A DNA stretch of 64,000 nt, taken from contig OX393555.1 of NCBI GenBank assembly GCA_947650365.1, positions 11,141,840 through 11,205,839 on the forward strand, written 5' to 3'. The position numbers and the translations under genes are program-made. This document shows, piece by piece, positions 10,380 to 63,869 of the stretch (its first letter is position 1; each line of letters opens with the position of its first letter). The DNA comes from Chamaelirium japonicum. Lineage: Eukaryota > Streptophyta > Magnoliopsida > Liliales > Melanthiaceae. The notes beneath the pieces are model-generated. The model saw only the letters and a program-made list of their open reading frames with translations. It had not been told where the DNA came from and did not search any database.

Positions 10380-13300
10380 AAAATGGTTTATATCTATAAC
10401 TGAGTCTAAGCGTTAAAAAATGATAAGTTAGCGTGTTTCGATTTTGAAATAGGTTTGGATTCGATCCGATCGTAGAATTATCGGCATCCGATAATTCGAA
10501 CTTGGAATTATTCCGTATTTCGGACTTGCGAGCGGGTTCTAATTGGACATTTGACCAATTTACGCTCCGATTCACCGATTTAGAGTCTAAGTGTTGAAAA
10601 ATCATAACTTAGCGTGTTTCGGATATGAAATAGCTAGGTTTGGATTCGATCGGATCGTCATCGGATCGGCATTCGATAATTCGAACTTGGAATTATTCTG
10701 AATTTCGGACTTGCGAGTGGGTTCTAATTGGATATTTGACCAATTTACGCTCCGATTCACCGATTTAGAGTCTAAGTATTGGAAAATCATAAGTTAGCGT
10801 GTTTCGGATATAAAATAGGTTTGGATTCGATCGGATCGTCATCGGCTCGGTATCCGATAATTCGAACTTGGAATTATTCCGTATTTCGGACTTGCGAGCG
10901 GGTTCTAATTGGATATTTGACCAATTTACGCTCCGATTCACCGATTTAGAGTCTAAGTGTTGGAAAATCATAAGCTAGCGTGTTTCGGATATAAAATAGG
11001 TTTGGATTCGATCGGATCGTCATCGGCTCGGCATCCGATAATTCGAACTTGGAATTATTCCGTATTTCAGACTTGCGAGCGGGTTCTAATTGGATATTTG
11101 ACCAATTTACGCTCCGATTCACCGATTTAGAGTCTACGTGTTGAAAAATCATAACTTAGCGTGTTTCGGATATGAAATAGCTAGGTTTGGATTCGATCGG
11201 ATCGTCATTGGATCGGCATTCGATAATTCGAACTTGGAATTATTCCGAATTTCGGACTTGCGAGCGGGTTCTAATTGGATATTTGACCAATTTACGCTCC
11301 GATTCACCGATTTAGAGTCTAAGTGTTGGAAAATCATAAGTTAGCGTGTTTCGGATATGAAATAGGTTTGGATTCGATCGGATCGTCATCGGCTCGGCAT
11401 CCGGTAATTCGAACTTGGAATTATTCCGTATTTCGGACTTGCGAGCGGGTTCTAATTGGATATTTGACCAATTTACGCTCCGATTCACCGATTTAGAGTC
11501 TAAGTGTTGGAAAATCATAAGTTAGCGTGTTTCGGATATGAAATAGGTTTGGATTCGATCCGATCGTCATCGGATCGGCATCCGGTAATTCGAAGTTGGA
11601 ATTATTCCGTATTTCGGACTTGCGAGCGGGTTCTAATTGGATATTTGACCAATTTACGCTCCGATTCACCGATTTAGAGTCTAAGTGTTGGAAAATCATA
11701 AGTTAGCGTGTTTCGGATATGAAATAGGTTTGGATTCGATCCGATCGTCATCGGTTCGGCATTCGATAATTCGAACTTGGAATTATTCCGTATTTCGGAC
11801 TTGCGAGCGGGTTCTAATTGGATATTTGACCAATTTACGCTCTGATTCACCGATTTAGAGTCTAAGTGTTGGAAAATCATAAGTTAGCGTGTTTCGGATA
11901 TGAAATAGGTTTGGATTCGATCCGATCATCATCGGCTCGGCATTCGATAATTCGAACTTGGAATTATTTCGAATTTCGGACTTGCGAGCGGGTTCTAATT
12001 GGATATTTGACCAATTTACGCTCCGATTCACCGATTTAGAGTCTAAGTGTTGGAAAATCATAAGTTAGTGTGTTTCGGATATGAAATAGGTTTGGATTCG
12101 ATCCGATCGTTATCGGATCGGCATCCGATAATTCGAAGTTGGATTTATTCCGTATTTCGGACTTGTGAGCGGGTTCTAATTGGATATTTGACCAATTTAC
12201 GCTCCGATTCACCGATTTAGAGTCTAAGTGTTGGAAAATCATAAGTTAGCGTGTTTCGGATATGAAATAGGTTTGGATTCGATCCGATCGTCATCGGATC
12301 GGCATCCGGTAATTCGAACTTGGAATTATTCCGTATTTCGGACTTGCGAGCGGGTTCTAATTGGATATTTGACCAATTTACGCTCCGATTCACCGATTTA
12401 GAGTCTAAGTGTTGGAAAATCATAAGTTAGCGTGTTACGGATATGAAATAGGTTTGGATTCGATCCGATCGTCATCGGCTCGACATCCGGTAATTCAAAG
12501 TTGGAATTATTCCGTATTTCGGACTTGCGAGCGGGTTCTAATTGGATATTTGACCAATTTACGCTCCGATTCACCGATTTAGAGTCTAAGTGTTGGAAAA
12601 TCATAAGTTAGCGTGTTTCGGATATGAAATAGGTTTGGATTCGATCCGATCGTCATCGGATCGGCATCCGGTAATTCGAAGTTGGAATTATTCCGTATTT
12701 CGGACTTGCGAGCGGGTTCTAATTGGATATTTGACCAATTTACGCTCCGATTCACCGATTTAGAGTCTAAGTGTTGGAAAATCATAAGTTAGCGTGTTTC
12801 GGATATGAAATAGGTTTGGATTCGATCCGATCGTCATCGGATCGGCATCCGGTAATTCGAAGTTGGAATTATTCCGTATTTCGGACTTGCGAGCGGGTTC
12901 TAATTGGATATTTGACCAATTTACGCTCCGATTCACCGATTTAGAGTCTAAGTGTTGGAAAATCATAAGTTAGCGTGTTTCGGATATGAAATAGGTTTGG
13001 ATTCGATCCGATCGTCATCGGATCGGCATCCTGTAATTCGAAGTTGGAATTATTCCGTATTTCGGACTTGCGAGCGGGTTCTAATTGGATATTTGACCAA
13101 TTTACGCTCCGATTCACCGATTTAGAGTCTAAGTGTTGGAAAATCATAAGTTAGCGTGTTTCGGATATAAAATAGGTTTGGATTCGATCCGATCGTCATC
13201 GGCTCGGCATCCGATAATTCAAACTTGGAATTATTCCGTATTTCGGACTTGCGAGCGGGTTCTAATTGGATATTTGACCAATTTACGCTCCGATTCACCG

Positions 13301-15597
13301 ATTTAGAGTCTAAGTGTTGGAAAATCATAAGTTAGCTTGTTTCGGATATGAAATAGGTTTGGATTCGATCCGATCGTCATCGGATCGGCATCCGATAATT
13401 CGAACTTGGAATTATTCCGTATTTCGGACTTGCGAGCGGGTTCTAATTGGATATTTGACCAATTTACGCTCCGATTCACCGATTTAGAGTCTAAGTGTTG
13501 GAAAATCATAAGTTAGCGTGTTTCGGATATGAAATAGGTTTGGATTCGATCCGATCGTCATCGGATCGGCATCCGATAATTCGAACTTGGAATTATTCCG
13601 TATTTCGGACTTGCGAGCGGGTTCTAATTGGATATTTGACCAATTTACGCTCCGATTCACCGATTTAGAGTCTAAGTGTTGGAAAATCATAAGTTAGCGT
13701 GTTTCGGATATGAAATAGGTTTGGATTCGATCCGATCGTCATCGGATCGGCATCCGGTAATTCGAACTTGGAATTATTCCGTATTTCGGACTTGCGAGCG
13801 GGTTCTAATTGGATATTTGACCAATTTACGCTCCGATTCACCGATTTAGAGTCTAAGTGTTGGAAAATCATAAGTTAGCGTGTTTCGGATATGAAATAGG
13901 TTTGGATTCGATCCGATCGTCATCGGATCGGCATCCGGTAATTCGAAGTTGGAATTATTCCGTATTTCGGACTTGCGAGCGGGTTCTAATTGGATATTTG
14001 ACCAATTTACGCTCCGATTCACCGATTTAGAGTCTAAGTGTTGGAAAATCATAAGTTAGCGTGTTTCGGATATGAAATAGGTTTGGATTCGATCCGATCG
14101 TCATCGGCTTGGCATCCGGTAATTCGAAGTTGGAATTATTCCGTATTTCGGACTTGCGAGCGGGTTCTAATTGGATATTTGACCAATTTACGCTCCGATT
14201 CACCGATTTAGAGTCTAAGTGTTGGAAAATCATAAGTTAGCATGTTTCGGATATGAAATAGGTTTGGATTCGATCCGATCGTCATCGGCTCGGCATCCGA
14301 TAATTCGAACTTGGATTTATTCCGTATTTCGGACTTGCGAGCGGGTTCTAATTGGATATTTGACCAATTTACGCTCCGATTCACCGATTTAGAGTCTAAG
14401 TGTTGGAAAATCATAAGTTAGCGTGTTTCGGATATAAAATAGGTTTGGATTCGATCCGATCGTCATCGGCTCGGCATCCGATAATTCGAACTTGGAATTA
14501 TTCCGTATTTCGGACTTGCGAGCGGGTTCTAATTGGATATTTGACCAATTTACGCTCCGATTCACCGATTTAGAGTCTAAGTGTTGGAAAATCATAAGTT
14601 AGCGTGTTTCGGATATGAAATAGGTTTGGATTCGATCCGATCGTCATCGGATCGGCATCCGATAATTTGAACTAGGATTTATTCCGTATTTCGGACTTGC
14701 GAGCGGGTTCTAATTGGATATTTGACCAATTTACGCTCCGATTCACCGATTTAGAGTCTAAGTGTTGGAAAATCATAAGTTAGCGTGTTTCGGATATGAA
14801 ATAGGTTTGGATTCGATCCGATCGTCATCGGATCGGCATCCGGTAATTCGAAGTTGGAATTATTCCGTATTTCGGACTTGCGAGCGGGTTCTAATTGGAT
14901 ATTTGACCAATTTACGCTCCGATTCACCGATTTAGAGTCTAAGTGTTGGAAAATCATAAGTTAGCGTGTTTCGGATATGAAATAGGTTTGGATTCGATCC
15001 GATCGTCATCGGATCGGCATCCAGTAATTCGAAGTTGGAATTATTCCGTATTTCGGACTTGCGAGCGGGTTCTAATTGGATATTTGACCAATTTACGCTC
15101 CGATTCACCGATTTAGAGTCTAAGTGTTGGAAAATCATAAGTTAGCGTGTTTCGGATATAAAATAGGTTTGGATTCGATCCGATCATCATCGGCTCGGCA
15201 TCCGATAATTCGAACTTGGAATTATTCCGTATTTCGGACTTGCGAGCGGGTTCTAATTGGATATTTGACCAATTTACGCTCCGATTCACCGATTTAGAGT
15301 CTAAGTGTTGGAAAATCATAAGTTAGCGTGTTTCGGATATGAAATAGGTTTGGATTCGATCCGATCGTCATCGGATCGGCATCCGATAATTCGAACTAGG
15401 ATTTATTCCGTATTTCGGACTTGCGAGCGGGTTCTAATTGGATATTTGACCAATTTACGCTCCGATTCACCGATTTAGAGTCTAAGTGTTGGAAAATCAT
15501 AAGTTAGCATGTTTCGGATATGAAATAGGTTTGGATTCGATCCGATCGTCATCGGATCGGCATCCGGTAATTCGAAGTTGGAATTATTTCGTATTTA
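10380..15597. repeat. 181-bp satellite array, about 29 units
   Basis: A head-to-tail array with a period of 181 bp; two units are 185 bp because of an extra CTAG after GATATGAAATAG (near 10630 and 11180). Each monomer runs through GTGTTTCGGATATGAAATAGG, a dyad GATCCGAT-CGTC-ATCGGATC, GGAATTATTCCG, a GGACTTGCGAGCGGG block and TTAGAGTCTAAGTGTTGG. Units in the middle (about 12.6-13.1 kb) are nearly identical and the left edge (10.4-11.3 kb) is more diverged, as expected for unequal exchange. Because 181 is not a multiple of 3, the row of 68-codon frames on the minus strand is a by-product of the monomer and not a gene family. Confidence 0.95.
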
Positions 15598-28055: not shown

Positions 28056-30140
28056 ATAATACACGTAGCCAGATTCCTTGGTTTTCACTATTGATTGAAC
28101 CTTGTGAGGAGAGGAGTGAACTGCCCCACAACATGCTAATGTAAGACCTTAAGTGGGAGTAGTTTAATGAATGAACTTAAGCAAGATAAAAATACTAACC
28201 CAATGACTATGCATTGTGCCGCCAAGCTAGGTAGACAATTGTGTGAGGTAAATTTTATTAGGTCGAGCTAGTACGTGTTCTTTCCGTATGTATTTCGGAA
28301 ACCTCCCTATTGAACCCCCTACAGACTAGGGAATTTAAGGTGGGATAGACTGTAGTGTCTGGGTGTGGCGTACGGTACGGTCATTGAAAAATTTTAAATC
28401 CGTGATTGTTGCCCGCTTGTGGGCGAATCGTGTTAATATATAATCGGCAAGACTTTATAACTCCCTGATCATTGGTTATTCTGCAATACCGTCCTCACAA
28501 GCTCCTCAATTTTAATGCTGGAGTTTTTTTTTCACACCATTAATGGGGTTTTTATTGTAAGTTTTATTCTGCTATTTGTTCATTCTACCTAGCAACCTAT
28601 GGATATTAGTTTATTGGGCACCCCAATAGCATCTCACTAAAGATTAGTTTGTTTTTTATCCCATCTAGCAATCTATAGATATTAGGGTATATTAATGTGT
28701 CTTACCTAACAAAGAGAGCCTACTAGAGAACTTGATGTCATAACAGTAGGATTTCACTAGAAAACAGTTAGTGAGTAGAGAAGCATTGGTTTTAGAACTT
28801 CACTCCCCCCCCCTCCCCCCTCATTCTATTTCATGGAAGGCCCATGGAATCCATTTCTCTTTTACCATATACTTTTCAGATAGAAACTACAAGGATCTCA
28901 ATGTCCATTCAATATCATTGTGAGAAAAAAGAAGCCCCTCATTCTTTAAGGGCCCTCTATAGTATAAGAAAGGCTTGAGTAGCACAAGCTCATGGAATTA
29001 ATGCAATCATGTCATGCCTCAGTGGAGCTAGAGGACTGGTATCAGCAAAGGAGAATGATCAGGAGGCATCATGCGCATGCTGTCATGATGTTGTGTGTAT
29101 GCACAATGACCATATTTCCCACCTTCATCACCATTCACTGAAAAAGCATCAAGTTGGACAACTTTACATATAAATTTGAGCATGGGGATCAAGTGGGGTT
29201 TGAAGGGGATAAACTACTGCTTAACTTTGCTTTGATTCCTTAATCATCTGCATTAGCCCTCTAAAGTGGCCCCTTTTGGTACTTGCGTATCATTCTCCGG
29301 TTCTCGGCATCCCATTTCCTGCCTCTTTGCTTTGTTAAGCTGAATAGACTCCCACTTAATCACACCTAAAGCTTCTTTAGTGGGTTTGCTTAATGCTAAG
29401 CTTCAATGTTGCCAACTTTAACTAAACAAAAGCCATGATGGACTCACCAATAATGGGCAAGCTAGCCATTTTGGAGAGGACATGGTGGACCAAAGAGGGA
29501 TTCTTTTGTGGTAGGATGTTCATCGCCCGGGGCCATGATAAGACAGACGCGCTCGATCATTTCTTCGAGAGTGTCGGGCCTTTAATCCTACTGCTAATTA
29601 TCAGAATAGATCGATGATCGAGTGTTATCCTGCCAAGTTTCTTGCATTTCTTGAATTGTGATTGCCATAAGGTTTTATCCTGAGAGATTCTAAGTGTCCT
29701 TTCTTAAAGTTTTCCAAGATGTGGTTCATGAATCTATGGAAGTAAACCATGTAATTAAACCAACCTATTTGGGGTTTCGTTAGCCAATATTCACTAAGGG
29801 AATTCCATGGTACCAATAGGTACCATACTGAAGTTGTGACACACCATCGGATTCCCTTTTCTTGAATCTTATGGGTCCACCTAGGATTCATCCTATGGCC
29901 CCTATTACAATATTGGGGTTATTAGCTATAGGCCCAGTATAACAATGTTGGGTTACATTAAGTCTATCGCATAGTTTTGGTTTACATGTAGTCCACGAAA
30001 TAACGTTAGATGAAGAGAATTCTTTGCTAACAGTTTTAGGTGACTAATCATTTTATTTGATTTATTTGTTCAAAATCACTGTACATCACTATTGCTATAG
30101 TGAAATCATTGTAGCTGTTACAGTGATTTGGGTTATTAGG
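28056..30140. other. Intergenic DNA, no gene seen
   Basis: No element ends, conserved protein blocks or RNA genes were recognised. A C-rich run lies at about 28805-28819. Confidence 0.5.
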
Positions 30141-30432
30141 TCAGGGTTAGGGTTCAGTAATAGGGGTGCATATATAATTTGGGTTAAGGGTTAGGTTTAG
30201 CTTTAGGGTTCACTATTCGAGGTTATAGAATTAGGCTTAGGGTTAGGGTTCACTATTTAGGTTATAGACTTAGGTTAGGGTTAGAGTTCACTAATAGGGG
30301 TATAGAATAAGGGTTATGGTTAGGTTTAGGGCTAGGGTTCACTATTTGAGGTTATAGAATTAGCTAAAGGTTTAGGGTTAACGGTTCACTATTTAGGTTA
30401 TACAATTAGGTTTAGGGTTAGGGTTTAGGTTT
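30140..30432 (+). repeat. Degenerate telomere-like repeats
   Basis: Many TTTAGGG and TTAGGG units are interspersed in a longer repeating phrase of about 55-65 bp (GGTTCACTATTTAGGTTATA followed by TTAGG runs), present about five times. The plant telomere heptamer is TTTAGGG, so this is either an interstitial telomere-derived tract or a minisatellite that resembles one. Confidence 0.7.
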
Positions 30433-30494
30433 CACAGTATGACAAAAACGTTTCGAAATTTTCCGAAACGTTTTTGTACGTCATGCCGTGAAAC
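30429..30494. repeat. Long imperfect hairpin
   Basis: GGTTTCACAGTATGAC then AAAAACGTTTCG pairs across an 8-nt loop with CGAAACGTTTTTGTAC then GTCATGCCGTGAAACC. The arms are about 28-31 bases with one short bulge. It abuts the telomere-like block and may be a tiny palindromic MITE. Confidence 0.75.
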
Positions 30495-41232: not shown

Positions 41233-42859
41233 TGATGCAAAACAATGCAGGTGAAGAGAATATTATTAATTAATTGAGTAGGCAGGGCTTAACTATTAAT
41301 ATCGATACCAAGCGAGAAAATTAGTTCAAATAAATAACACGAGCAGATGCGTTGGGAACTACTGTAACAATACCGATCGCTTTCGATATCAGGTGATAAA
41401 GAACAACCCTTAAAATTACCGGCTACTAGTCCTACTTGCAATTTTTAGATTCGCAGCGCTACGGGCAGGTGAACGCTCAACCTCACGACAGGGGCAGCAG
41501 TTGGCAATGATAATATATTAGAGATCCAATGGGTGAAACACGATGGTACCTGATCGAGTAGGGGAATCCTTACTGAGGAGGTGGAGATGGTGGCGTGAGA
41601 ACGTTCTCCGGAGTCGGCAGGTCTTCCGGGCGAGGCGATGGTGGTGCTGGGGCCTCCGGGGCTGCGCTCGTCTCGGGGCATGGATTTGCAAGCAGGTAGA
41701 GGCACACGATGTTCCGATGCACCGGCGCGTCAGGGTGCCAGCGACGATGCCACTCGCTGATGCTGAGGCGGGCTTCAGCGTCACAAACCACGGTGTAGGA
41801 GATCCGTTCCACGTATTCCTCCACGCTCTCTCCTTCCGAAAATTGAAAGTCGAGGAAGGGGGAGTTGATGTCGAGGTACCCGTCTTCGTCTTCGATCATT
41901 CCATGGTCCACGTCGGGGTCCGCCATGGGAGCATGCCGGAGCGGTGAGAGGATGGTGGGTTGGTCCGGCTCGGATCGGATCGGATTGCGAGAGAGGACGA
42001 GAGGGGAGGGGATCGGGTAATGAGGGGAGGAGGGGTTCGGTTGGCTGTAAGGGAGGGGTGGGGACGGGATATCGGGCCGGGCCGGATGGAGAAGGAGGGA
42101 AAAAGGGGGGGGGGGTCGTGCGGCTGGGGCTGGGATCGGATGGGCAGCAGCAGGAGGGGGAGAGGAGGGGATCTGGGTGGGGAAGGGGTATCGGGCCGGG
42201 CCGGATGGGGAAGGAGGGAGGATTCGGGCGGCTGGGGGCTGGGATCGGGTGGGCAGCAGCAGGAGGGGAAGAGGAGGGGATCGGGGTGGGGAAGGGGGTA
42301 TCGGGCCGGGCCGGATGGGGCAGGAGGGAGGAGTCGGGCGGCTGGGGGTCGGGATCGGATGGGGAGCAGGAGGGAAAGAGGAGGGGGATCGGGGTGGGGA
42401 GACGGGCGGCACGAACAGGGAGGGAAGGGGACAGGCTCGGGGAGAGAGAGAGAGAGAGGGAGAGAGCTGAGGGCAGGCGATAGGGGCTAGGGAAAAGAAA
42501 AGGGAAAAGATTAGGGTTTCACACGCCTAATCTGATCCTAGGGTTTCACACACCTAGGCTTGGGGTTGGGGTTTCACACGCCTCACCCTGGTTCTCTCAA
42601 CATATATGTGGAGGGAAACGAAATTTTATTATTCATTCAATCAATGCCATTACATGTTCCATGGGCAGGCCTATATAAAGGCCTGCGATAACAAATGAAA
42701 ACCCCTGAAAGTCGAGGTGGGACTAAATAACACAATGCAGAAAATAAAAACAAATGCAAACATCCATGATGGTGCAGGATGTCTGATCAGAGCCATAGGC
42801 TCAGGTGGCGCCTCCTGCGCTCGTACACGCGCCATGGGCGCTGCTTGATGTCCTCATCA
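41233..42859 (-). repeat. 3' LTR of Ty3 chromovirus
   Basis: 1627 bp, very similar to 47626-49236 with scattered substitutions and small length changes in G-runs. It contains a TATA-like TTTATATA near 42670 in the minus sense and an ORF at 41570-41926. The gag-pol frame runs about 19 codons into it. Confidence 0.95.
41570..41926 (-). CDS. LTR-encoded 118-residue ORF (3' LTR copy)
   Basis: From the ATG at 41924-41926 the frame encodes an acidic protein: MADPDVDHGMIEDEDGYLDI at the start, then a block with EEYVERISYTV and SISEWHRRWHP, and a Pro-rich tail. It is in the element's sense direction. The 5' LTR carries the same ORF, same length, with a few substitutions. The family was not recognised. 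The middle part looks like ordinary folded protein and not low complexity, so it may be a captured host exon or a regulatory ORF; the flanking Pro-rich frame upstream of the ATG is low complexity. Confidence 0.5.
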   Translation of the reverse strand: MADPDVDHGMIEDEDGYLDINSPFLDFQFSEGESVEEYVERISYTVVCDAEARLSISEWHRRWHPDAPVHRNIVCLYLLANPCPETSAAPEAPAPPSPRPEDLPTPENVLTPPSPPPQ

Positions 42860-47625: not shown

Positions 47626-49236
47626 TGATGCGAAACAATGCAGGTGAAGAGAATATTATTAATTAATTGAGCAGGCAGGGCTTAACTATTAATATCGATA
47701 CCAAGCGAGAAAATTAGTTCAAATAAATAACACGAGCAGATGCGTTGGGAACTACTGTAACAATACCAATCGCTTTCGATATCAGGTGATAAAGAACAAC
47801 CCTTAAAATTACCGGCTACTAGTCATACTTGCAATATTTAGATTCGCAGCGCTACGGGCAGGTGGACGCTCAACCTCACGACAGGGGCAGCAGTTGGCAA
47901 TGATAATATATTAGAGATCCAATGGGTGAAACACGATGGTACCTGATCGAGTAGGGGAATCCTTACTGAGGAGGTGGAGATGGTGGCGCAGGAACGTTCT
48001 CCGGAGTCGGCAGGTCTTCTGGGCGAGGCGATGGTGGTGCTGGGGCCTCCGGGGCTGCGCTCGTCTCGGGGCGTGGATTTGCAAGCAGGTGGAGGCACAC
48101 GATGTTCCGATGCACCGGCACGTTAGGGTGCCAGCGACGATGCCACTCGCTGATGCCGAGGCGGGCTTCAGCGTCACAAATCACGGTGTAGGAGATCCGT
48201 TCCACGTATTCCTCCACGCTCTCTCCTTCCAAGAATTGAAAGTCGAGGAAGGGGGAGTTGATGTCGAGGTACCCGTCTTCGTCTTCGATCATTCCATGGT
48301 CCACGTTGGGGTCCGCCATGGGAGCATGCCGGAGCGGTGAGAGGATGGTGGGTTGGTCCGAGTCGGATCGGATCGGATTGCGAGAGAGGACGAGAGGGGA
48401 GGGGATCGGGTAATGAGGGGAGGAGGGGTTCGGTTGGCTGTAAGGGAGGGGTGGGGACGGGATATCGGGCCGGGCCGGATGGAGAAGGAGGAAAAAGGGG
48501 GGGGGGTCGTGCGGCTGGGGCTGGGATCGGATGGGCAGCAACAGGAGGGGGAGAGGAGGGGATCGGGGTGGGGAAGGGGTATCAGGCCGGGCCGGATGGG
48601 GAAGGAGGGAGGATTCGGGCGGCTGGGGGCTGGGATCGGGTGGGCAGCAGCAGGAGGGAAAGAGGAGGGGATCGGGGTGGGGAAGGGGGTATCGGGCCGG
48701 GCCGGATGGGGCAGGAGGGAGGAGTCGGGCGGCTGGGGGTCGGGATCGGATGGGGAGCAAGAGGGGAAGAGGAGGGGGATCGGGGTGGGGAGACGGGCGG
48801 CACGAACAGGGAGGGAAGGGGACAGGCTCGGGGAGAGAGAGAGAGAGGGAGAGAGCTGAGGGCAGGCGGTGGGGGCTAGGGAAAAGATTAGGGTTTCACA
48901 CGCCTAATCTGATCCTAGGATTTCACACACCTAGGCTTGGGGTTGGGGTTTCACACGCCTCACCCTGGTTCTCTCAACATATATGTGGAGGGAAACGAAA
49001 TTTTATTATTCATTCAATCAATGCCATTACATGTTCCATGGGCAGGCCTATATAAAGGCCTGCGATAACAAACCAAAACCCCTGAAAGTCGAGGTGGGAC
49101 TAAATAACACAATGCAGAAAATAAAAACAAATGCAAACATCCATGATGGTGCAGGCTGTCTGATCAGAGCCATAGGCTCAGGTGGCGCCTCCTGTGCTCG
49201 TACACGCGCCATTGGCGCTGCTCGATGTCCTCATCA
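47626..49236 (-). repeat. 5' LTR of Ty3 chromovirus
   Basis: 1611 bp, paired with 41233-42859. In the minus sense it starts TGATGAGG at 49236, has a palindromic TATA region near 49050, and would drive gag-pol transcription. Confidence 0.95.
47963..48319 (-). CDS. LTR-encoded 118-residue ORF (5' LTR copy)
   Basis: Same start, length and stop as the ORF at 41570-41926. Differences by eye are mainly substitutions (for example MADPN for MADPD at the start, and LGISEWHRRWHPN for LSISEWHRRWHPD), with no frameshift or stop. In the minus sense it lies between the TATA region and the primer site, so it would be within the transcribed leader. Confidence 0.5.
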   Translation of the reverse strand: MADPNVDHGMIEDEDGYLDINSPFLDFQFLEGESVEEYVERISYTVICDAEARLGISEWHRRWHPNVPVHRNIVCLHLLANPRPETSAAPEAPAPPSPRPEDLPTPENVPAPPSPPPQ

Positions 49237-55688: not shown

Positions 55689-55782
55689 CTTGCACGTGAA
55701 GTCAATCCCGTATGGGATTGGGACTCCCATACACACACACACGCTTGGCTTTATCTCTTGCTATAAAAGGAGGTGTGATCCT
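55689..55782 (+). repeat. Right TRIM-like LTR, first part
   Basis: Matches 54331-54423 and is broken at ATCCT, the target duplication of the retrotransposon at 55783. The match resumes at 63870. Confidence 0.75.
55778..55782. repeat. Target-site duplication of 8-kb LTR element, left
   Basis: ATCCT directly before the LTR start TGTGGG; the same five bases follow the right LTR at 63865-63869. Confidence 0.92.
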
Positions 55783-56396
55783 TGTGGGTGCAAAAATTGT
55801 ACCGGACCAGATCAGAGCAGCATGGGCCCGCGCAACGGCCCAAATGGGTAAGCCCGCCTGGGCTCACATGGGCCCACTTTACGAGGCTCGCAGATCAAGC
55901 CCTACCCCTTATTGGGCCCGAACAACGGCCCAATAAGGGCCCAGCAAGGAGGCCCAGAACCAGTGCCACGTCATCAGCGCCACGTCATCACTGCCATATC
56001 GGACACGTGCCTACGCTATAAAAGGACCCCCAAGGCATCCAGGAAGGGGGTTGGTGATTCGATCAGAGGAAGAGGATTCCAGAGCAAGTGCTAGAGCTCA
56101 ATTCTCTCCTTCTTGCACTCTTCTAGTTGCTCCGTGCAACCCCACTGTACGAAGCTTCTCTCGGCCTGTCGAGAGAACGCTCAACCCTCCATACTCAAAT
56201 TATAGTGAAGATCAGGTGGCACCTCTCGCCCGGAGACGTAGGTCGTAAGGCCGAACTCCGTCACCAATCCTTGTGTCATCGCTCTTTATTCTCTCTATCT
56301 ATTCTCCCATCTCTCTAACTCTACAAACAATCCAATTCAATCAAGGCTGTGGGGGCGGGATTCTCGATCAAGGCGGCTCCGAAATTTCCCCCCACA
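55783..56396 (+). repeat. 5' LTR of 8-kb element
   Basis: 614 bp, identical in length to the right LTR, with about five substitutions by eye. It holds a 13-bp inverted repeat around CCCTTATTGGGCC / GGCCCAATAAGGG (about 55906-55939), two CCACGTCATCA copies and an ACACGTGC box at 55964-56010, and a TATA box CTATAAAAGG at 56016. Confidence 0.95.
56016..56025 (+). promoter_or_regulatory. LTR TATA box
   Basis: CTATAAAAGG, about 10-50 bases after a cluster of ACGT-core motifs (two CCACGTCATCA, one ACACGTGC). The same arrangement is at 63484 in the right LTR. The ACGT elements are typical bZIP binding sites, so stress- or ABA-type induction is possible. Confidence 0.7.
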
Positions 56397-56537
56397 ATCT
56401 TTGGCGCCGTCTGTGGGATATCGTTAGAGGTCTTACCCACACCTCTACCGACTCCTATTCAACTTGTGGTGACGAGCCACAAGTCCTTCTCCAAAATCAA
56501 CATCAACGCCATCATCACGCCGACATCAACACGCTCG

Positions 56538-56795
56538 ATGGTGAAGGCCAGCACTAACCCACCAAAGGCGGGTGCTAAACGAACAAACGATATGCTGATC
56601 GAAGAAGAACAAAAAGTCTCGGTTGCAACCAACCGAAGAAATGTTCGGGAGCGGCTGGGGCCGCAAGGCAGCCATCCAGAAGGGCACAGCGATCGGCGAG
56701 ACCCATCATCCCCGAGGCGTCGATCTGGCAAAAAACACGCTATTCAAGGGAGCAAGCCTCAGGCTACATTTGAGATCTCGACTGCTGATTTCTAG
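56538..56795 (+). pseudogene. Gag-leader-like ORF remnant
   Basis: From the ATG at 56538 a basic, low-complexity frame of about 85 codons (KRTNDMLIEEEQK, then RRRSGKKH) ends at TAG 56793-56795; directly after, the same strand reads LLKKNAALEQERDSLRKAAE, a coiled-coil typical of Tat-lineage gag N-termini. It looks like the start of a gag gene cut off by the arrays. No nucleocapsid or pol motif follows. Confidence 0.45.
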
Positions 56796-56918
56796 CTACT
56801 AAATCTCCTCAAGAAGAATGCGGCCCTCGAGCAAGAGAGGGATTCCCTAAGAAAGGCGGCTGAAAGAGCGGGGGTTATGGCCCACAACTCTCTAGCTACT
56901 GATAAAGACCGATAGAAA

Positions 56919-57690
56919 AGCTCCTAGCAACCCAGGTCAATCAAAGACCTTTGATTCCGCCCATTCAAGTCGGAAGCTCGAAGGCAATTCGGCTACGCCC
57001 TTTCAAGGCTAAAGTCCGACAAAAAGGCTCCTGGCAACCCAGGTCAACCAAAGACCTTCGATTCCGCCCATTCAAGTCGGAAGCTCGAAGGCAATTCGGC
57101 TACGCCCTTTCAAGGCTAAAGTCCGACAAAAAGGCTCCTGGCAACCCAGGTCAACCAAAGACCTTCGATTCCGCCCATTCAAGTTGGAAGCTCGAAGGCA
57201 ATTCGGCTACGCCCTTTCAAGGCAAAAGTCCGACAAAAAGGCTCCTGGCAACCCAGGTCAACCAAAGACCTTCGATTCCGCCCATTCAAGTCGGAAGCTC
57301 GAAGGCAATTCGGCTACGCCCTTTCAAGGCAAAAGTCCGATAAAAAGGCTCCTGGCAACCCAGGTCAACCAAAGACCTTCGATTCCGCCCATTCAAGTCG
57401 GAAGCTCGAAGGCAATTCGGCTACGCCCTCTCAAGGCTAAAGTACGATAAAAAGGCTCCTGGCAACCCAGGTCAACCAAAGACCTTCGATTCCGCCCATT
57501 CAAGTTGGAAGCTCGAAGGCAATTCGGCTACGCCCTTCCAAGGCGAAAGTCCGATAAAAATGCTCCTGGCAACCCAGGTCAACCAAAGACCTTCGATTCC
57601 GCCCATTCAAGTCGGAAGCTCGAAGGCAATTCGGCTACGCCCTTTCAAGGCGAAAGTCAGATAAAAATACTCCAGACAATCCAGGTCAAG
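56919..57690 (+). repeat. Tandem array A, 107-bp period, about 7 units
   Basis: Units with GGCTCCTGGCAACCCAGGTC recur at 57026, 57133, 57240, 57347, 57454 and 57561, exactly 107 bp apart, with few substitutions. Edges are more diverged. The short dyad CCTGGcaaCCCAGG is present in each unit. Confidence 0.95.
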
Positions 57691-57713
57691 CTAAACTATC
57701 AACTATACTTATC

Positions 57714-59262
57714 CGAGGTGACCAATGCCTCGGCACTCTACAAGCCCAAGGCGTAGCCCTTGGCACTCGAAGATAAAGTCCGAGGCGATCAATGCCTCGG
57801 CACTCTACAAGCCCAAGGCCCAGCCCTTGGCACTCGAAGACAAAGTCCAAGGCGACCAACTCCTCGGCACTCTACAAGCCCAAGGCCCAGCCCTTGGCAC
57901 TCGAAGACAAAGTCCGAGGCGACCAATGCCTCGGCATTCTACAAGCCCAAGGTGTAGCCCTTGGCACTCGAAGATAAAGTCTGAGGCGATCAATGCCTCG
58001 GCACTCTACAAGCCCAAGGCGTAGCCCTTGGCACTCGAAGATAAAGTCCGAGGCGACCAATGCCTCGGCACTCTACAAGCCCAAGGCCTAGCCCTTGGCA
58101 CTCGAAGACAAAAGTCCGAGGCGACCAATGCCTCGGCACTCTACAAGCCCAAGTCCCAGTCCTTGGCACTTGAAGACAAAGTCCGAGGCGACCAATGCCT
58201 CGGCACTCTACAAGCCCAAGGCCCAGCCCTTGGCACTCGAAGACAAAGTCCAAGGCGACCAACGCCTCGGCACTCTACAAGCCCAAGGCCCAGCCCTTGG
58301 CACTCGAAGACAAAGTCCGAGGCGACCAATGCCTCGGCATTCTACAAGCCCAAGGCGTAGCCCTTGGCACTCGAAGATAAAGTCCGAGGCGATCAATGCC
58401 TCGGCACTCTACAAGCCCAAGGCGTAGCCCTTGGCACTCGAAGATAAAGTCCGAGGCGACCAATGCCTCGGCACTCTACAAGCCCAAGGCCTAGCCCTTG
58501 GCACTCGAAGATAAAAGTCCGAGGCGACCAGTACCTCGGCACTCTACAAGCCCAAGTCCCAGTCCTTGGCACTTGAAGACAAAGTCCGAGGCGACCAATG
58601 CCTCGGCACTCTACGAGCCCAAGGCCTAGCCCTTGGCACTCGAAGATAAAAGTCTGAGGCGACCAATGCCTCGGCACTCTACAAGCCCAAGTCCCAGTCC
58701 TTGGCACTTGAAGATAAAGTCCGAGGCGACCAATGCCTCAGCACTCTACAAGCCCAAGGCCTAGCCCTAGGCACTCGAAGATAAAAGTCCGAGGCAACCA
58801 ATGCCTCGGCACTCTACAAGCCCAAGTCCCAGTCCTTGGCACTTGAAGACAAAGTCCGAGGCGACCAATGCCTCGGCACTCTACGAGCCCAAGGCCTAGC
58901 CCTTGGCACTCGAAGATAAAAGTCCGAGGCGACCAATGCCTCGGCACTCTACAAGCCCAAGTCCCAGTCCTTGGCACTTGAAGACAAAGTCCGAGGCGAC
59001 CAATGCCTCGGCACTCTACGAGCCCAAGGCCCAGTCCTTGGCATTCGAAGATAAAGTCCGGGGTGACCAATGCCTTGGCACTCTACAAGCCCAAGGCCCA
59101 GTCCTTGGCACTTGAAGACAAAGTCCGAGGCGACCAATGCCTCGGCACTCTACGAGCCCAAGGCCCAGTCCTTGGCATTCGAAGAAAAAGTCCGAGGCGA
59201 CCAACACCTCGGCACTCTATAATCCCAAGGCCCTACCCTTGACACATAAAGATAAAGTCCGA
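57714..59262 (+). repeat. Tandem array B, 67-bp period, about 23 units
   Basis: Units of 67 bp (68 where an extra A occurs) with two hairpins each: CCGAGGC-GACCAAT-GCCTCGG and CCAAGG-CCCAGC-CCTTGG. Sub-families differ in the second hairpin loop (GCGTAG, CCCAG, CCTAG), and a three-unit higher-order pattern is visible at 58480-58990. Frames across it on both strands are by-products. Confidence 0.95.
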
Positions 59263-59735
59263 GATGTCGTCGCCGACATATTGGCATTCGATCAAAAGTC
59301 CAGGCTTAGTCCTGTCACTCAGGTCCAAGCATTAGATTGTCAATGGCCATCACCTTTTCTCGACGACTAACGGTTCCAAGCCGGTCAGGGGGTGGTTGGT
59401 CTGACTCTGTCAGTGCGTGTCTCCACACTGGTGCAGTCGACGGTGGGTAACACAGGATAAAATGGTGCTTTCTTGATCCTGGCCAAGTCAACACCCTCGC
59501 GTGACCGTAGTACCTGGTGAATACAGTAACCAGGTACGGTAATACATTGGGTGAAGACCGGCTGGCCATCATGCGATGTCATCCTAGATTATCTCTAAGA
59601 TACCCCCTCGAATATAGCATTGTCCCTCGCCGACATCCCCGCGCACCAGCGTTTTACCGAAAAAGTATCGGTTTCGAATGGGGCTGAAATTCGAAAAACA
59701 CACTATTTTCAATACCGACACTTTTTGGCCTCTTC
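59263..59735 (+). other. Unique spacer between arrays B and C
   Basis: No tandem structure and no recognised coding block. It ends in ACACTATTTTCAATACCGACA-CTTTTTGGCC, a phrase echoed near 62941 and 63084. Confidence 0.5.
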
Positions 59736-61362
59736 TAGCAGCCTACCCCTCGGTTTCGTCAGAAAACCGAGAGGGGGGGTGTGTCGGCATCAACAAGCAG
59801 CCCACCCCTCGGTTTCGTCAGAAAACCGAGAGGGGGTGTGTGTCGGCATCAACAAGCAGCCCACCCCTCGGTTTCGTCAGAAAATCGAGAGGGGGGGTGT
59901 GTCGGCATCAACAAGCAGCCCACCCCTCGGTTTCGTTAGAAAACCGAGAGGGGGTGTGTGTCGGCATCAACAAGCAGCCCACCCCTCGGTTTCGTTAGAA
60001 AACCGAGAGGGGGTGTGTGTCGGCATCAACAAGCAGCCCACCCCTCGGTTTCGTTAGAAAACCGAGAGGGGGTGTGTGTCGGCATCAACAAGCAGCCTAC
60101 CCCTCGGTTTCGTCAGAAAACCGAGAGGGGGGGGGGGTGTGTCGGCATCAACAAGCAGCCCACCCCTCGGTTTCGTCAGAAAACCGAGAGGGGGTGTGTG
60201 TCGGCATCACAAGCAGCCCACCCCTCGGTTTCGTCAAAAAACGAGAGGGGGTGTGTGTCGGCATCAACAAGCAACCCCCCCTCGGTTTTGCAGAAAAACC
60301 AAGTGGAGAGGGGGGTGACGACACACCATCAGCACACTACTCGGTTTCGTCAGAAAACCGAGAGGGGGTGTGTGTTAGCATCAACAAGCAGCCCCCCCTC
60401 GGTTTCGCACAAAAACCGAGTGGGGAAAGGGTGACAGCACACCATCAGCAGCACACCCCTCGGTTTCGTCAGAAAACCGAGAGGGGGTGTGTGTCGGCAT
60501 CAACGAGCAACTCTCCCTCAGTTTCGCACAAAAACCGAGTGGGGAGGGGGTGACGGCACACCATCAGCACACCCTCGTTTTTGTTAGAAAACCGAGAGGG
60601 GGTGTGTGTCGGCATCAACAAGCAACCCCCCCCTCGGTTTCGCACAAAAACCGAGTGGGAGGGGTGACAGCACACCATCAGCATACCCCTCGGTTTCGTC
60701 AGAAAACCGAGAGGGGGGGTGTGTCGGCATCAACAAGCAGCCCACCCCTCGGTTTCGTCAGAAAACCGAGAGGGGGTGTGTGTCGGCATCAACAAGCAAC
60801 CCCCCCTCGGTTTTGCACAAAAACCGAGTGGGGAAGGGGTGACGGCACACATCAGCAGCACACCCCTCGGTTTCGTCAGAAAACCGAGAGGGGGGGTGTG
60901 TCGGCATCAACAAGCAACCCCCCCTCGGTTTCGCACAAAAACCGAGTGGAGAGGGGGTGACGACACACCATCAGCATACCCCTCGGTTTCGTCAGAAAAC
61001 CGAGAGGGGGGGGTGTGTCGGCATCAACAAGCAGCCCACCCCTCGGTTTCGTCAGAAAACCGAGAGGGGGGGTGTGCCGGCATCAACAAGCAGCCCACCC
61101 CTCGGTTTCGTCAGAAAACCGAGAGGAGGGGTGTGTCGGCGTCAACAAGCAGCCCACCCCTCGGTTTCGTCAGAAAACCGAGAGGGAGGTGTGTCGGCAT
61201 CAAGATGCATCCCACCACTCGGTTTCGTCAGAAAACCGAGAGGGGGGGTGCGTCGGCATCAACAAGCAGCCCACCCTTCGGTTTCGTCAGAAAACCGAGA
61301 GGGGGGTGCGTCGGCATCAACAAGCAGCCCACCCCTCGGTTTTGTCAAAACTGAGAAAAGGA
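59736..61362 (+). repeat. Tandem array C, about 59-bp period, hairpin units
   Basis: About 27 units based on CAGCCCACCCCTCGGTTTCG, TCAGAAAACCGAGAGGGGG and TGTGTGTCGGCATCAACAAG. Each unit forms CTCGGTTT-loop-AAACCGAG, extended by CACCCC/GGGGTG. Two loop types alternate in the middle (cgtcaga and cgcacaa) while the stem is kept. Confidence 0.95.
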
Positions 61363-61439
61363 GGGGGGTCTTGGATTCTATAGCAACGCTCCTCTCGATT
61401 TTAAAAAAAAAAAAGGGGGAGGGAAGTGCCGAATCCGTC

Positions 61440-62000
61440 ACGTGTGAAAGAAAGAGAGTAAAGAGAGAGAGAAGCCTGCTATCTCACCCAAGTCCAAAGC
61501 AAAGAGAGAGAGAGAAGCCGGCTCTCTCACCAAAATCCAAAGCAAATAGAGAGAGAAGTTGCTATCTGACCGTGGACCGAAGGCAATGAAAAGAAAGAGA
61601 GGAGAGCAAAGAAAGGAAAGCAAACAAAGGAAAGAGAGAGAGTGCTGCTCTCTCATCAAAAAAAGAAGAAGCCAAAGAAAGAAAAAGGGCAGAGAAAGGA
61701 AAAAAAACCCCTTCTTGCCATGCCTCCTTCCCACTCGTGCATGGATCGTGCTCTCTCATGCATGGATCGCGCTCTCTCCCTCCCACTCGTGCATGGATCG
61801 CGCCCCTCTTGCCGTGCCTCCTTCTTTGGTGTACAGCACAAACAAAAAGCCAAAGAAACAGAGCAGAGAAAGGAAAGAACGGGAAACGGAAGGAGAGAGA
61901 GAGGGCCCGACTCGTGCCCGCAGCCCCCCTCTCCGATCCGATCGGGGCCAGCCCCCCGGCCGCGACCGGCCGTCGCCAGTCTCCTCCCTCCCGTCTGCAC
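61440..62000 (+). repeat. Purine-rich AAAGAGAG/GAAAGGA region
   Basis: AAAGAGAGAGAGAAG units of about 54 bp (CAAAGCAAAGAGAGAGAGAAG at 61494) and a duplicated phrase TCGTGCATGGATCG (61735-61800). No protein. Confidence 0.7.
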
Positions 62001-62075
62001 CGCAGGAACAAGGGAGCCGCCCCGATCTCCGCCATCCCTCCTCTCTGCCGCTCCACTCGCCCTGCCACCGTCGCC

Positions 62076-62387
62076 ATGGACGCCGTCGCCGACTGGGGCC
62101 TGACTCCCCTGCATGCCGCCGACGAGGAGGTCTTCGACCTGATCAAGCGGGAGAAGCGCCGGCAGTGCCGAGGGATCGAGCTGATCGCATCGGAGAACTT
62201 CACCTCGTTCGCTGTCATCGAGGCCCTCGGCAGCTCCCTCACCAACAAGTACTCCGAGGGCATGCCAGGCGCGCGCTACTACAGCGGCAACGAGTTCACC
62301 GACGAGATCGAGAACCTCTGCCGCTCCCGCGCCCTCGCCGCCTTCCACCTCGACCCCGCCCGCTGGGGCGTCAACGTGCAGCCCTAC
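62076..62387 (+). pseudogene. Captured serine hydroxymethyltransferase 5' part
   Basis: From the ATG at 62076 about 104 residues match the N-terminus of plant cytosolic SHMT, the PLP enzyme that moves a one-carbon unit between serine and tetrahydrofolate: [14 protein letters not shown], then [20 protein letters not shown], then [19 protein letters not shown] and RWGVNVQPY. The match stops at NVQPY, before the catalytic core and the PLP lysine. About 80 bases upstream resemble its leader. The frame stays open after the match through a Pro/Ala-rich stretch to an A-tract (62540-62559). It is in sense with the LTR promoter, so a fusion transcript is possible. It cannot encode an active enzyme. 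Few, if any, disabling changes are visible in the captured part. Confidence 0.9.
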
Positions 62388-62539
62388 CTCGGCCTGGACC
62401 CCGTGCTCGCCGCCGTTCCACAGCCGCCGCCTGCGCCTCCCATGCCCGCGCCGACTGCGTCGCCCGTGCCCACCGCCTGGGCCTTGCCTGCGTCGACCTC
62501 CGCGCCGTCACTGTCGCCTGTTGTTGTGCCTTGGCGAAC

Positions 62540-62559
62540 AAAAAAAAAAAAAAAAAAAA
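62540..62559 (+). repeat. A-tract downstream of captured SHMT part
   Basis: Nineteen to twenty A between GGCGAAC and CAACAGAG. It could be a relic of a poly-A tail from an RNA intermediate or simple slippage in a purine-rich region. Confidence 0.7.
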
Positions 62560-62798
62560 CAACAGAGAAGGAAAGAGAGAGAGAGGGACTCTCTCTCACG
62601 TGAATGAAAAACAGAGAGAGAGAGGGGCGTCCGCTCTCACATGCAGGTCAAAGCCAAAGAAAGGGGAAAGAGAGAGAGAAAGGAAAGACAGAGAGAGAGG
62701 GACGTCCGCTGTCCCGTTTGAGTCAGAGCCAAAGAGGAAAGAGAGAGAGAGAAAGGAAAGAGAGAGAGAGAGAGAAAAACTGTTCTTTCACCAAAAGG
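62560..62798 (+). repeat. Purine-rich GAGAGAG/GAAAGG region
   Basis: Repeats of AAAGGGAAAGAGAGAGAG type, similar to 61440-61640, so this block flanks the captured SHMT part on both sides. Confidence 0.7.
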
Positions 62799-63115
62799 CT
62801 CTCGGTATGCTCTCGGTACCCTCTCGGTATGCACTCGGTATGCTCTCGGTACCCACTCGGTATGCACTCGGTACCCTCTCGGTATCCACTCGGTCGGAAA
62901 ACGCACTACCTTTTCGGAAACACCCCCTTGCAAAACCGAGACTTTTTGGCTTGCACCAAAAGGGTCTCGGTAACCACTCGGTATGCTCTCGGTACCCACT
63001 CGGTATGCACTCGGTACCCTCTCGGTATCCACTCGGTCGGAAAACGCACTGTTTCTTCGGAAACACCCCCTCACAAAACCGAGACTTTTTGGCTCGCGCC
63101 AAAAAGGGTCTCGGC
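62799..63115 (+). repeat. Array D: 11-bp CTCGGTA repeats and long hairpins
   Basis: Nine 11-bp units of CWCTCGGTAYS type at 62799-62897 and seven at about 62964-63040, each block followed by GGAAAACGCACT and an ACCGAGAC ... GTCTCGGT hairpin (62935-62971; 63078-63114) in which TTTTGG and CCAAAA also pair. Confidence 0.9.
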
Positions 63116-63250
63116 ATCGGCGGAAGAAGGCTCTGCTAATACGAACCGCGGCACCGACAACCCTCGCCAACCGCGCCAGGATCCTAAAGCGTTTGCACCT
63201 TGGAATCCCAGCCGACCCAGGTGGTCCTGACCCGACTGGGAGGGGGTAAC

Positions 63251-63864
63251 TGTGGGTGCAAAAATTGTACCAGACCAGATCAGAGTAGCATGGGCCCGTG
63301 CAACGGCCCAAATGGGTAAGCCCGCCTGGGCTCACATGGGCCCACTTTACGAGGCTCGCAGATCAAGCCCTACCCCTTATTGGGCCCGAACAACGGCCCA
63401 ATAAGGGCCCAGCAAGGAGGCCCAGAACCAGTGCCACGTCATCAGCGCCACGTCATCACTGCCATATCGGACACGTGCCTACGCTATAAAAGGACCCCCA
63501 AGGCATCCAGGAAGGGGGTTGGTGATTCGATCAGAGGAAGAGGATTCCAGAGCAAGTGCTAGAGCTCAATTCTCTCCTTCTTGCACTCTTCTAGTTGCTC
63601 CGTGCAACCCCACTGTACGAAGCTTCTCTCGGCCTGTCGAGAGAACGCTCAACCCTCCATACTCAAATTATAGTGAAGATCAGGTGGCACCTCTCGCCCG
63701 GAGACGTAGGTCGTAAGGCCGAACTCCGTCACCAATCCTTGTGTCATCGCTTTTTATTCTCTCTATCTATTCTCCCATCTCTCTAACTCTACAAACAATC
63801 CAATTCAATCAAGGCTGTGGGGGCGGGATTCTCGATCAAGGCGGCTCGGAAATTTCCCCCCACA
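63251..63864 (+). repeat. 3' LTR of 8-kb element
   Basis: 614 bp, preceded by the purine tract GGGAGGGGGTAAC and followed by the duplication ATCCT. About five differences from the 5' LTR: near 63272, 63286, 63299, 63752 and 63848. Confidence 0.95.
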
Positions 63865-63869
63865 ATCCT
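63865..63869. repeat. Target-site duplication of 8-kb LTR element, right
   Basis: ATCCT, identical to 55778-55782. Confidence 0.92.

Follow-up and report, generated by a model that had tools for sequence, protein, structure and literature searches.

A Retand-like LTR retrotransposon of Chamaelirium japonicum belongs to a non-autonomous, recombining family with host gene fragments in one variable slot

What is the interior of a long terminal repeat (LTR) retrotransposon for, when it is filled largely by long tandem arrays? The question is raised by an element at positions 55783-63864 of the window analysed here, the 64,000-nucleotide stretch C7:11141840-11205839 of the 1.52-Gb genome of Chamaelirium japonicum. 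The first-pass annotation had seen in this element arrays of CTCGG/CCGAG hairpins, and had proposed that its transcript serves as a structural RNA. The hairpin observation was confirmed in part, and the interpretation placed on it is unproven; the most informative features of the element are a captured host gene fragment (61981-62393) and the slot that holds it, both of which had been missed. The element is a member of a non-autonomous, Retand-like family that is recently active, recombines and captures genes. We give a probability of roughly 0.7 to the reading that it is a young copy of a Tat-clade LTR family that is mobilized in trans, whose copies exchange modules, and which picks up pieces of host genes in the slot between its arrays C and D.

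The element is an LTR retrotransposon, as had been claimed: its two 614-bp LTRs (55783-56396 and 63251-63864), with TG...CA ends, show 5 differences between them, a primer-binding site (PBS) and a polypurine tract (PPT) are present, and a perfect target-site duplication (TSD), ATCCT, flanks the element on both sides. Arrays A, B and C and block D were delimited by Tandem Repeats Finder, which upheld B, C and D as tandem and added a 107-bp array A (56903-57689) that had gone unnamed. The parts of the element are as follows.

55778-55782, no strand: left TSD, ATCCT
55783-56396, + strand: 5' LTR, TGTGGG...CCCACA
56400-56419, + strand: PBS region, TTTGGCGCCGTCTGTGGGAT; 20 of 20 nt are the same in a related pol-bearing family
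56538-56795, + strand: truncated start of gag, 85 aa; the frame reaches 550 aa, with PF03732, in copies L011 and L014
56903-57689, + strand: array A, 107-bp unit, 7.4 copies, weak hairpin potential
57712-59263, + strand: array B, 67-bp unit, 23 copies, with hairpins CCGAGGC/GCCTCGG and CCAAGG/CCTTGG in each unit
59264-59736, + strand: non-repetitive spacer ("mid"), 92-98% identical in 14 other copies (345 bp only in L019)
59737-61347, + strand: array C, units of about 59 bp and of two types, stem CTCGGTTT/AAACCGAG
61424-62455, + strand: variable slot (cargo), without a match of at least 120 bp in the 14 other copies compared
61981-62393, + strand, sense: fragment of a serine hydroxymethyltransferase (SHMT) gene, 5' leader and 106 codons, 96.4% identical to gene L042 (contig C134)
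62540-62797, + strand: poly(A) tract of 20 nt (62540-62559), then GA-rich framework
62798-63115, + strand: block D, CTCGGTAnn repeats of 11, 33 and 143 bp, with two CCGAGAC...GTCTCGG dyads
63116-63250, + strand: conserved 3' region with the PPT, CTGGGAGGGGGTAAC, at its end
63251-63864, + strand: 3' LTR
63865-63869, no strand: right TSD, ATCCT

A search of the genome with the LTR, in which the best 40 of 3251 candidates were scored, gave 41 places at 94% or higher. Twenty stretches were fetched and 15 copies, including that of the window, were used, 11 of them full and four partial (the 3' LTR of L026 is cut, L021 and L027 are cut at the 3' side, and L019 has a 176-bp piece of the 5' LTR). All 11 full copies tested carry a perfect 5-bp TSD, and their LTRs show 0-7 differences, with Kimura two-parameter distances of 0-0.0115; at a grass rate this corresponds to an age below half a million years. 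The order of modules (LTR, leader, gag where present, A, B, spacer, C, variable region, GA-rich part, D, PPT region, LTR) is constant in all 11 full copies and, as far as their sequence is covered, in the four partial ones. The stretch L019 1-4907 holds family LTRs in both orientations and is a nested cluster. Beside the L021 element, L032 1-692 contains a further LTR end and a leader 79% like that of the window, perhaps those of a sister family.

The slot between arrays C and D differs among copies, pairwise comparison distinguishing 12 kinds in the 15 copies; L013 and L016, L017 and L018, and L026 and L027 have their kinds in common, and some kinds share parts of their framework. In the window, 62076-62393 encodes the start of an SHMT (PF00464, 7.5e-42; SHMT4, PDB 6smr, 8.4e-52), and the whole 413-bp fragment matches L042 over 414 aligned columns, so the element holds an internal fragment with an identifiable donor gene. 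The match begins 37 nt downstream of the first base of a TATAAAT; transcripts are expected to start shortly downstream of a TATA-type box, and in this one case the match thus begins near the expected transcript start. Inspection of the other copies, with Pfam applied to ten frames from the window and eight loci and then to five of L009, L012 and L020 and one of L029, revealed a peroxidase in L015 (PF00141, 7.4e-4, below the curated cut-off), FAR1 in L021 (2.6e-7) and, in L017 and L018, a GT47 sequence (0.031, below cut-off) with a DNA match to gene L052 (PF03016, 3.7e-47). The further cargo frames of L009 (two), L012 (two), L020 (one) and L029 (one) gave nothing above the cut-off. Donor or donor-like genes were found for SHMT, GT47 and isoflavone reductase.

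The GT47 cargo also records what happened after capture. An older form, L051, consists of GT47 sequence (about 325-510 of L052), an isoflavone-reductase-like piece, and GT47 sequence again from 520; the inserted piece is 168 bp long, antisense, and identical at 164 of 168 positions to 361-528 of L053, whose exon 1 has a best PDB match of 4.9e-20. One cargo thus combines sequence from two genes on separate contigs (C6 and C1). In L017, 124 bp of the L051-type cargo have been deleted between two GGGGC repeats. Four of the five identified fragments are sense to the element. The sense captures match donor-like genes without an intron-sized gap, so that they are compatible with entry either as RNA or as DNA.

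Two candidate donors were set aside. L049, a gene related to the peroxidase cargo (1.3e-46), is only 89% identical to it in DNA and is a relative of the donor, and L050, which matches the FAR1 cargo at 96% over 541 columns, was not accepted as a proven donor because, by eye, it lies between two similar stretches of about 50 bp; it may itself be a copy. Within L050 1-960, FAR1 sequence precedes a frame that is pectinesterase-like by eye; this stretch may be the insertion of a copy rather than a gene. In the diverged elements L041 and L048, the same SHMT and a related peroxidase piece end at different points, a pattern that suggests either repeated capture or trimming at a later time. A-rich runs stand at the matching place in L015 and L017, and in the window the poly(A) tract ends the cargo's GC-rich portion, which gives the impression that an early cargo was once a polyadenylated transcript.

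Some cargo, once present, was amplified. Among the candidates scored for each query, places at 96% or more numbered nine for SHMT (best 40 of 84), 14 for peroxidase (best 40 of 107), seven for FAR1 (best 40 of 195), all over the full length of the query, and 22 for GT47 (31 of 31), the last comprising 13 that cover the whole query and nine that cover 321 of its 331 bases, the final 10 being missing. Examination of the eight SHMT loci that were cut out, the window copy included, found block D in seven and an LTR in six. Five of these LTRs are only 92-93% like that of the window, although the SHMT block is 98.8-99.4% alike. Over 13 copies, the distances between pairs of copies in one module (LTR, leader, spacer or PPT region) show almost no correlation with those in another (Spearman -0.18, -0.06, -0.01, 0.05, -0.10 and 0.32). 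The leader sequences of L017, L018 and L019, for instance, agree at 99-100%, yet the L019 spacer is 92% like those of the other two. The presence and amplification of cargo are established by these data, and modules have been exchanged between copies.

How does such an element move? The window copy retains 85 aa of gag, so the earlier claim that the interior is not coding fits this copy; it fails for the family, in which five of the 15 copies (L010, L011, L014, L015 and L021) have about 1.45 kb of additional sequence, the gag region, after the leader. The frame from the leader ATG reaches 550 aa in L011 and L014, both of which contain the Gag domain PF03732, and 483 aa in L021, and is interrupted in L010 and L015. 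In four of four further hits from a gag search of the genome (best 40 of 2873 candidates scored), array A starts no more than 62 bp past the point where the gag match ends. The family copies examined yielded no pol. The Gag homologues in the protein collection are six legume proteins (23-35% identity), and a legume Gag query uncovered an abundant relative family in the genome (16814 candidates, 107 scored), which was read in the 5' parts of two copies (L055, L056) and for 5 kb further in one (L057). This relative shares the 20-nt PBS and 12 nt at the LTR start with the window family, its Gag is 45% identical over 509-538 aa (538 aa for L055/L057), and L057 encodes a protease, a reverse transcriptase (RVT_1), two RNase H domains (RT_RNaseH, RVT_3) and an integrase. 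Dual RNase H is a mark of the Tat clade, and by its Gag and PBS the window family probably belongs there. The relative's copies are possible helpers. The LTR of L055 and L056 (about 670-1650) seems, from its translations, to hold short tandem repeats.

On the reading we prefer, the RNA of the element would be packaged by the Gag of sister copies or relatives and copied in trans by the enzymes of a pol-bearing relative. Its interior would behave as a set of modules (leader and gag remnant, arrays A, B and C, spacer, cargo slot, D) that copies exchange; the simplest mechanism would be template switching by reverse transcriptase among co-packaged RNAs. Jumps at repeats or microhomologies would alter array length and sometimes carry host sequence into the C-D slot, some cargoes then being amplified. 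Several findings weigh against this account. Among the best 40 of 3251 LTR candidates and the best 40 of 2873 gag candidates no autonomous copy with the window LTR was found, although a rare one could escape such a search; of the other copies and the autonomous partner that had been suggested as a check, only the former came to light. The LTR of the pol-bearing relative aligns to that of the window over only 79-120 bp, at 69-73%. Pfam on selected frames did not identify a host gene in eight of the 12 slot kinds. Module exchange could alternatively reflect gene conversion at the DNA level. Finally, 12 nt of the isoflavone-reductase-like piece in L051 fall in intron 1, which is impossible for a spliced sense mRNA; at least one piece therefore has another origin, and derivation of all cargo from spliced sense mRNA is ruled out.

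The intron-bearing piece, antisense and lodged within a GT47 fragment, and the location of the two donor genes on different contigs speak for a different route, in which host sequence enters the slot at the DNA level, by double-strand-break repair, insertion of small pieces or gene conversion, and transposition spreads it afterwards. We regard this route as a tentative but serious possibility. The start of the SHMT match close to an expected transcript start argues the other way, as does the plausibility of template switching in so young a family that recombines and is copied through RNA. The sense orientation of four of the five identified fragments points in the same direction, sense being said to be usual for transduced genes (PMC7264820).

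A further reading, which we think unlikely, would make the family a dedicated capture-and-shuffle vehicle: its arrays would stall reverse transcriptase and so provoke jumps, and the C-D slot would repeatedly take in pieces of cellular RNA (sense, antisense and from several genes) that co-packaged copies pass on to one another. If true, this would be an RNA-level counterpart of Pack-MULEs and Helitrons.

What, then, of the hairpins? When 150-nt windows were folded and compared with dinucleotide shuffles, mean z on the + strand was -3.9 in array B and -4.3 in array C (10 windows each), -1.7 in A (five), -1.4 in D (two) and -0.2 in the LTR (four), against a background mean of -0.64 (50 windows, standard deviation 1.72, 14% below -3); the minus strand of B and C folded with similar stability. 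Because units within one array are copies of each other, a stricter null was also used, in which one unit was shuffled and folded singly or tiled three times (400 shuffles each). Shuffles as stable as the real unit numbered 16 for A, 3 for B, 1 for C and 109 for D when folded singly, and 30, 11, 4 and 73 when tiled. Thus the excess of hairpins over chance holds for arrays B and C, whereas by these nulls the hairpins of A and D are not clearly above chance and are ordinary or weak. The same picture extends to the other copies, mean z being at most -2.7 for B and at most -2.9 for C in 15 of 15.

The first-pass annotation had described CTCGG/CCGAG hairpins in B, C and D and had called for shuffled controls. 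Those controls favour B and C, leave A weak and fail to support D, where the two motifs occur 17 and 2 times (A 0 and 0, B 21 and 19, C 25 and 24). Its estimate of well over 60 hairpins holds, as a span-limited minimum-free-energy fold of 56397-63250 contains 116, of which 82 have stems of at least 6 bp, and the two loop types that it reported around a common stem in array C can be seen directly. The arrays B, C and D, which it described as unrelated in length and in most of their sequence, are not entirely so: a stretch of 34 bp aligns between B and C (3 of 500 shuffles) and one of 14 bp between C and D (1 of 500), so the dyad common to the arrays may in part reflect common descent.

Stability repeated over units counts as a single observation, since the units copy each other. 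Variation among units (130 distinct B, 73 C and 83 A units from the 15 copies) bears on the proposal that the arrays are a selected RNA structure, with multiple helper-Gag binding or kissing-loop sites that raise packaging or dimerization. In its favour, arrays B and C are present in all copies examined, their hairpins exceed shuffled controls in every one, and paired columns diverge about half as much as unpaired ones by mean (B,.031 versus.066, permutation p.0275; C,.041 versus.076, p.0267). The medians, however, lie closer together (B,.027 versus.031; C,.036 versus.055), CpG columns of array C diverge equally (.080 paired,.079 unpaired), and when the paired positions were moved round the unit, an equally low value arose in 2 of 66 shifts for B and 7 of 57 for C, so that stem conservation is weak at best. 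Compensatory changes between units, the check that had been suggested, were no more frequent than in shuffles (B1, 3 against 1.5 expected, 184/1000; C1, 1, 533/1000), and stem covariation gave no signal over the B, C and A units. Nor is array length conserved, unit number differing 3- to 5-fold among copies (A 4-12, B 6-31, C 7-25); A and D are near random in the unit-shuffle nulls, and arrays A-D have no match in the stretches read of L055, L056 and L057. A structural-RNA role is accordingly unsupported by these data and, though possible, improbable, and is not the best-supported part of the account.

Still less probable is that the arrays yield hairpin or double-stranded RNA, and from it small RNAs that silence the family itself or the genes from which its captured pieces derive: the stems of 6-8 bp are shorter than the usual Dicer substrates, and an Rfam scan returned three microRNA-family matches only, all far below the gathering score, set against the strength of the hairpins, the presence of both sense and antisense gene pieces, and the negative regulation that small-RNA analysis in rice and sorghum suggested for some LTR-captured genes (PMC3726574). 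On the preferred reading, the hairpins would mainly be a by-product of palindromic repeat units and would at most, speculatively, promote pausing and jumping.

The family bears on a wider problem. To our knowledge, how LTR retrotransposons acquire host genes is poorly understood. Here, one slot holds fragments of five host genes in a family with 0-7 LTR differences in the copies tested, and some of its cargoes have identifiable donor genes and visible later rearrangements. The mechanism of capture, including whether its template is RNA or DNA and what part repeats and hairpins play, thereby becomes testable.

Elsewhere in the window, a satellite-like array occupies 10402-15596 (181-bp tandem repeat, 28.7 copies, 96% matches), and degenerate TTAGGG-type repeats are interspersed with a longer unit at 30135-30435. 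Nearly identical 110-bp tandem blocks at 42103-42400 and 48495-48791, about 6.4 kb apart, suggest a duplication or an LTR pair.

The family can be compared with several known systems. TR-GAG elements are non-autonomous and carry Gag only. L011 and L014, which have LTRs and a Gag frame but lack pol, would fit that description; the window copy has lost nearly all of gag and is dominated by arrays and cargo. Dasheng/RIRE2 of rice pairs a non-autonomous gypsy family, which the present one resembles, with an autonomous partner, whereas only possible helpers can be named here. Onsen of Arabidopsis, unlike the window family, is a Copia family with its own pol. The two are alike in pairwise recombination among members of a single LTR family, which in Onsen occurs at high frequency during bursts (PMC5668417, whose abstract leaves host cargo unmentioned). 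Large retrotransposon derivatives (LARDs), for which well-conserved RNA structure has been claimed (PMC7215508), also have a large non-coding interior and presumed movement in trans; they have no protein-coding member, whereas the 550-aa Gag frame of L011 and L014 sets the window family apart, as does an interior of tandem arrays and host gene pieces.

The family also resembles Retand elements, a lineage of Ty3/gypsy elements in the Tat clade, which often have tandem arrays, of unknown function, near the 3' LTR and include non-autonomous members (PMC11963269). The window family shares with them an LTR within their range of 315-1194 bp, a Retrotrans_gag Gag, length-variable arrays before the 3' LTR (a trait frequent in Retand, not universal) and non-autonomous members (PMC11963269), as well as a PBS common to a relative with two RNase H domains. 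It differs in that no pol was found in the copies examined, in being filled largely by three long arrays, and in the host gene pieces before the 3' LTR. An antisense TRP28 ORF near the 3' LTR is present in all but 2 of 63 Retand clusters (PMC11963269), and TRP28 (PF04195) was found in none of 10 antisense open reading frames of at least 90 aa in the window element, nor in one of L010; we therefore call the family Retand-like, not Retand.

Capture of host genes by LTR elements is likewise documented, with at least 189 captures in 425 maize elements surveyed (PMC2774510) and 672 captured genes in rice and 1343 in sorghum (PMC3726574), and its mechanisms have been reviewed (PMC13317346). Like these elements, among them maize Bs1, the window family carries host gene fragments inside and spreads them by transposition; it differs in that a single slot has received several different captures, that one cargo derives from two unlinked genes, and that cargo is shared by LTR variants. 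The maize survey, under its conditions, detected no element combining pieces of two or more genes (PMC2774510), although Bs1 carries fragments of three (PMC13317346). Among the titles and opening abstract lines covered, most subscription papers lying outside that scope, no family appeared in which one slot between hairpin arrays had received several captures. Retand elements with arrays and LTR elements that capture genes are already known (PMC11963269, PMC2774510, PMC3726574), and the first-pass statement that no described element is organized this way was in that respect too strong; what looks new is repeated capture in a single slot of an array-built, non-autonomous family.

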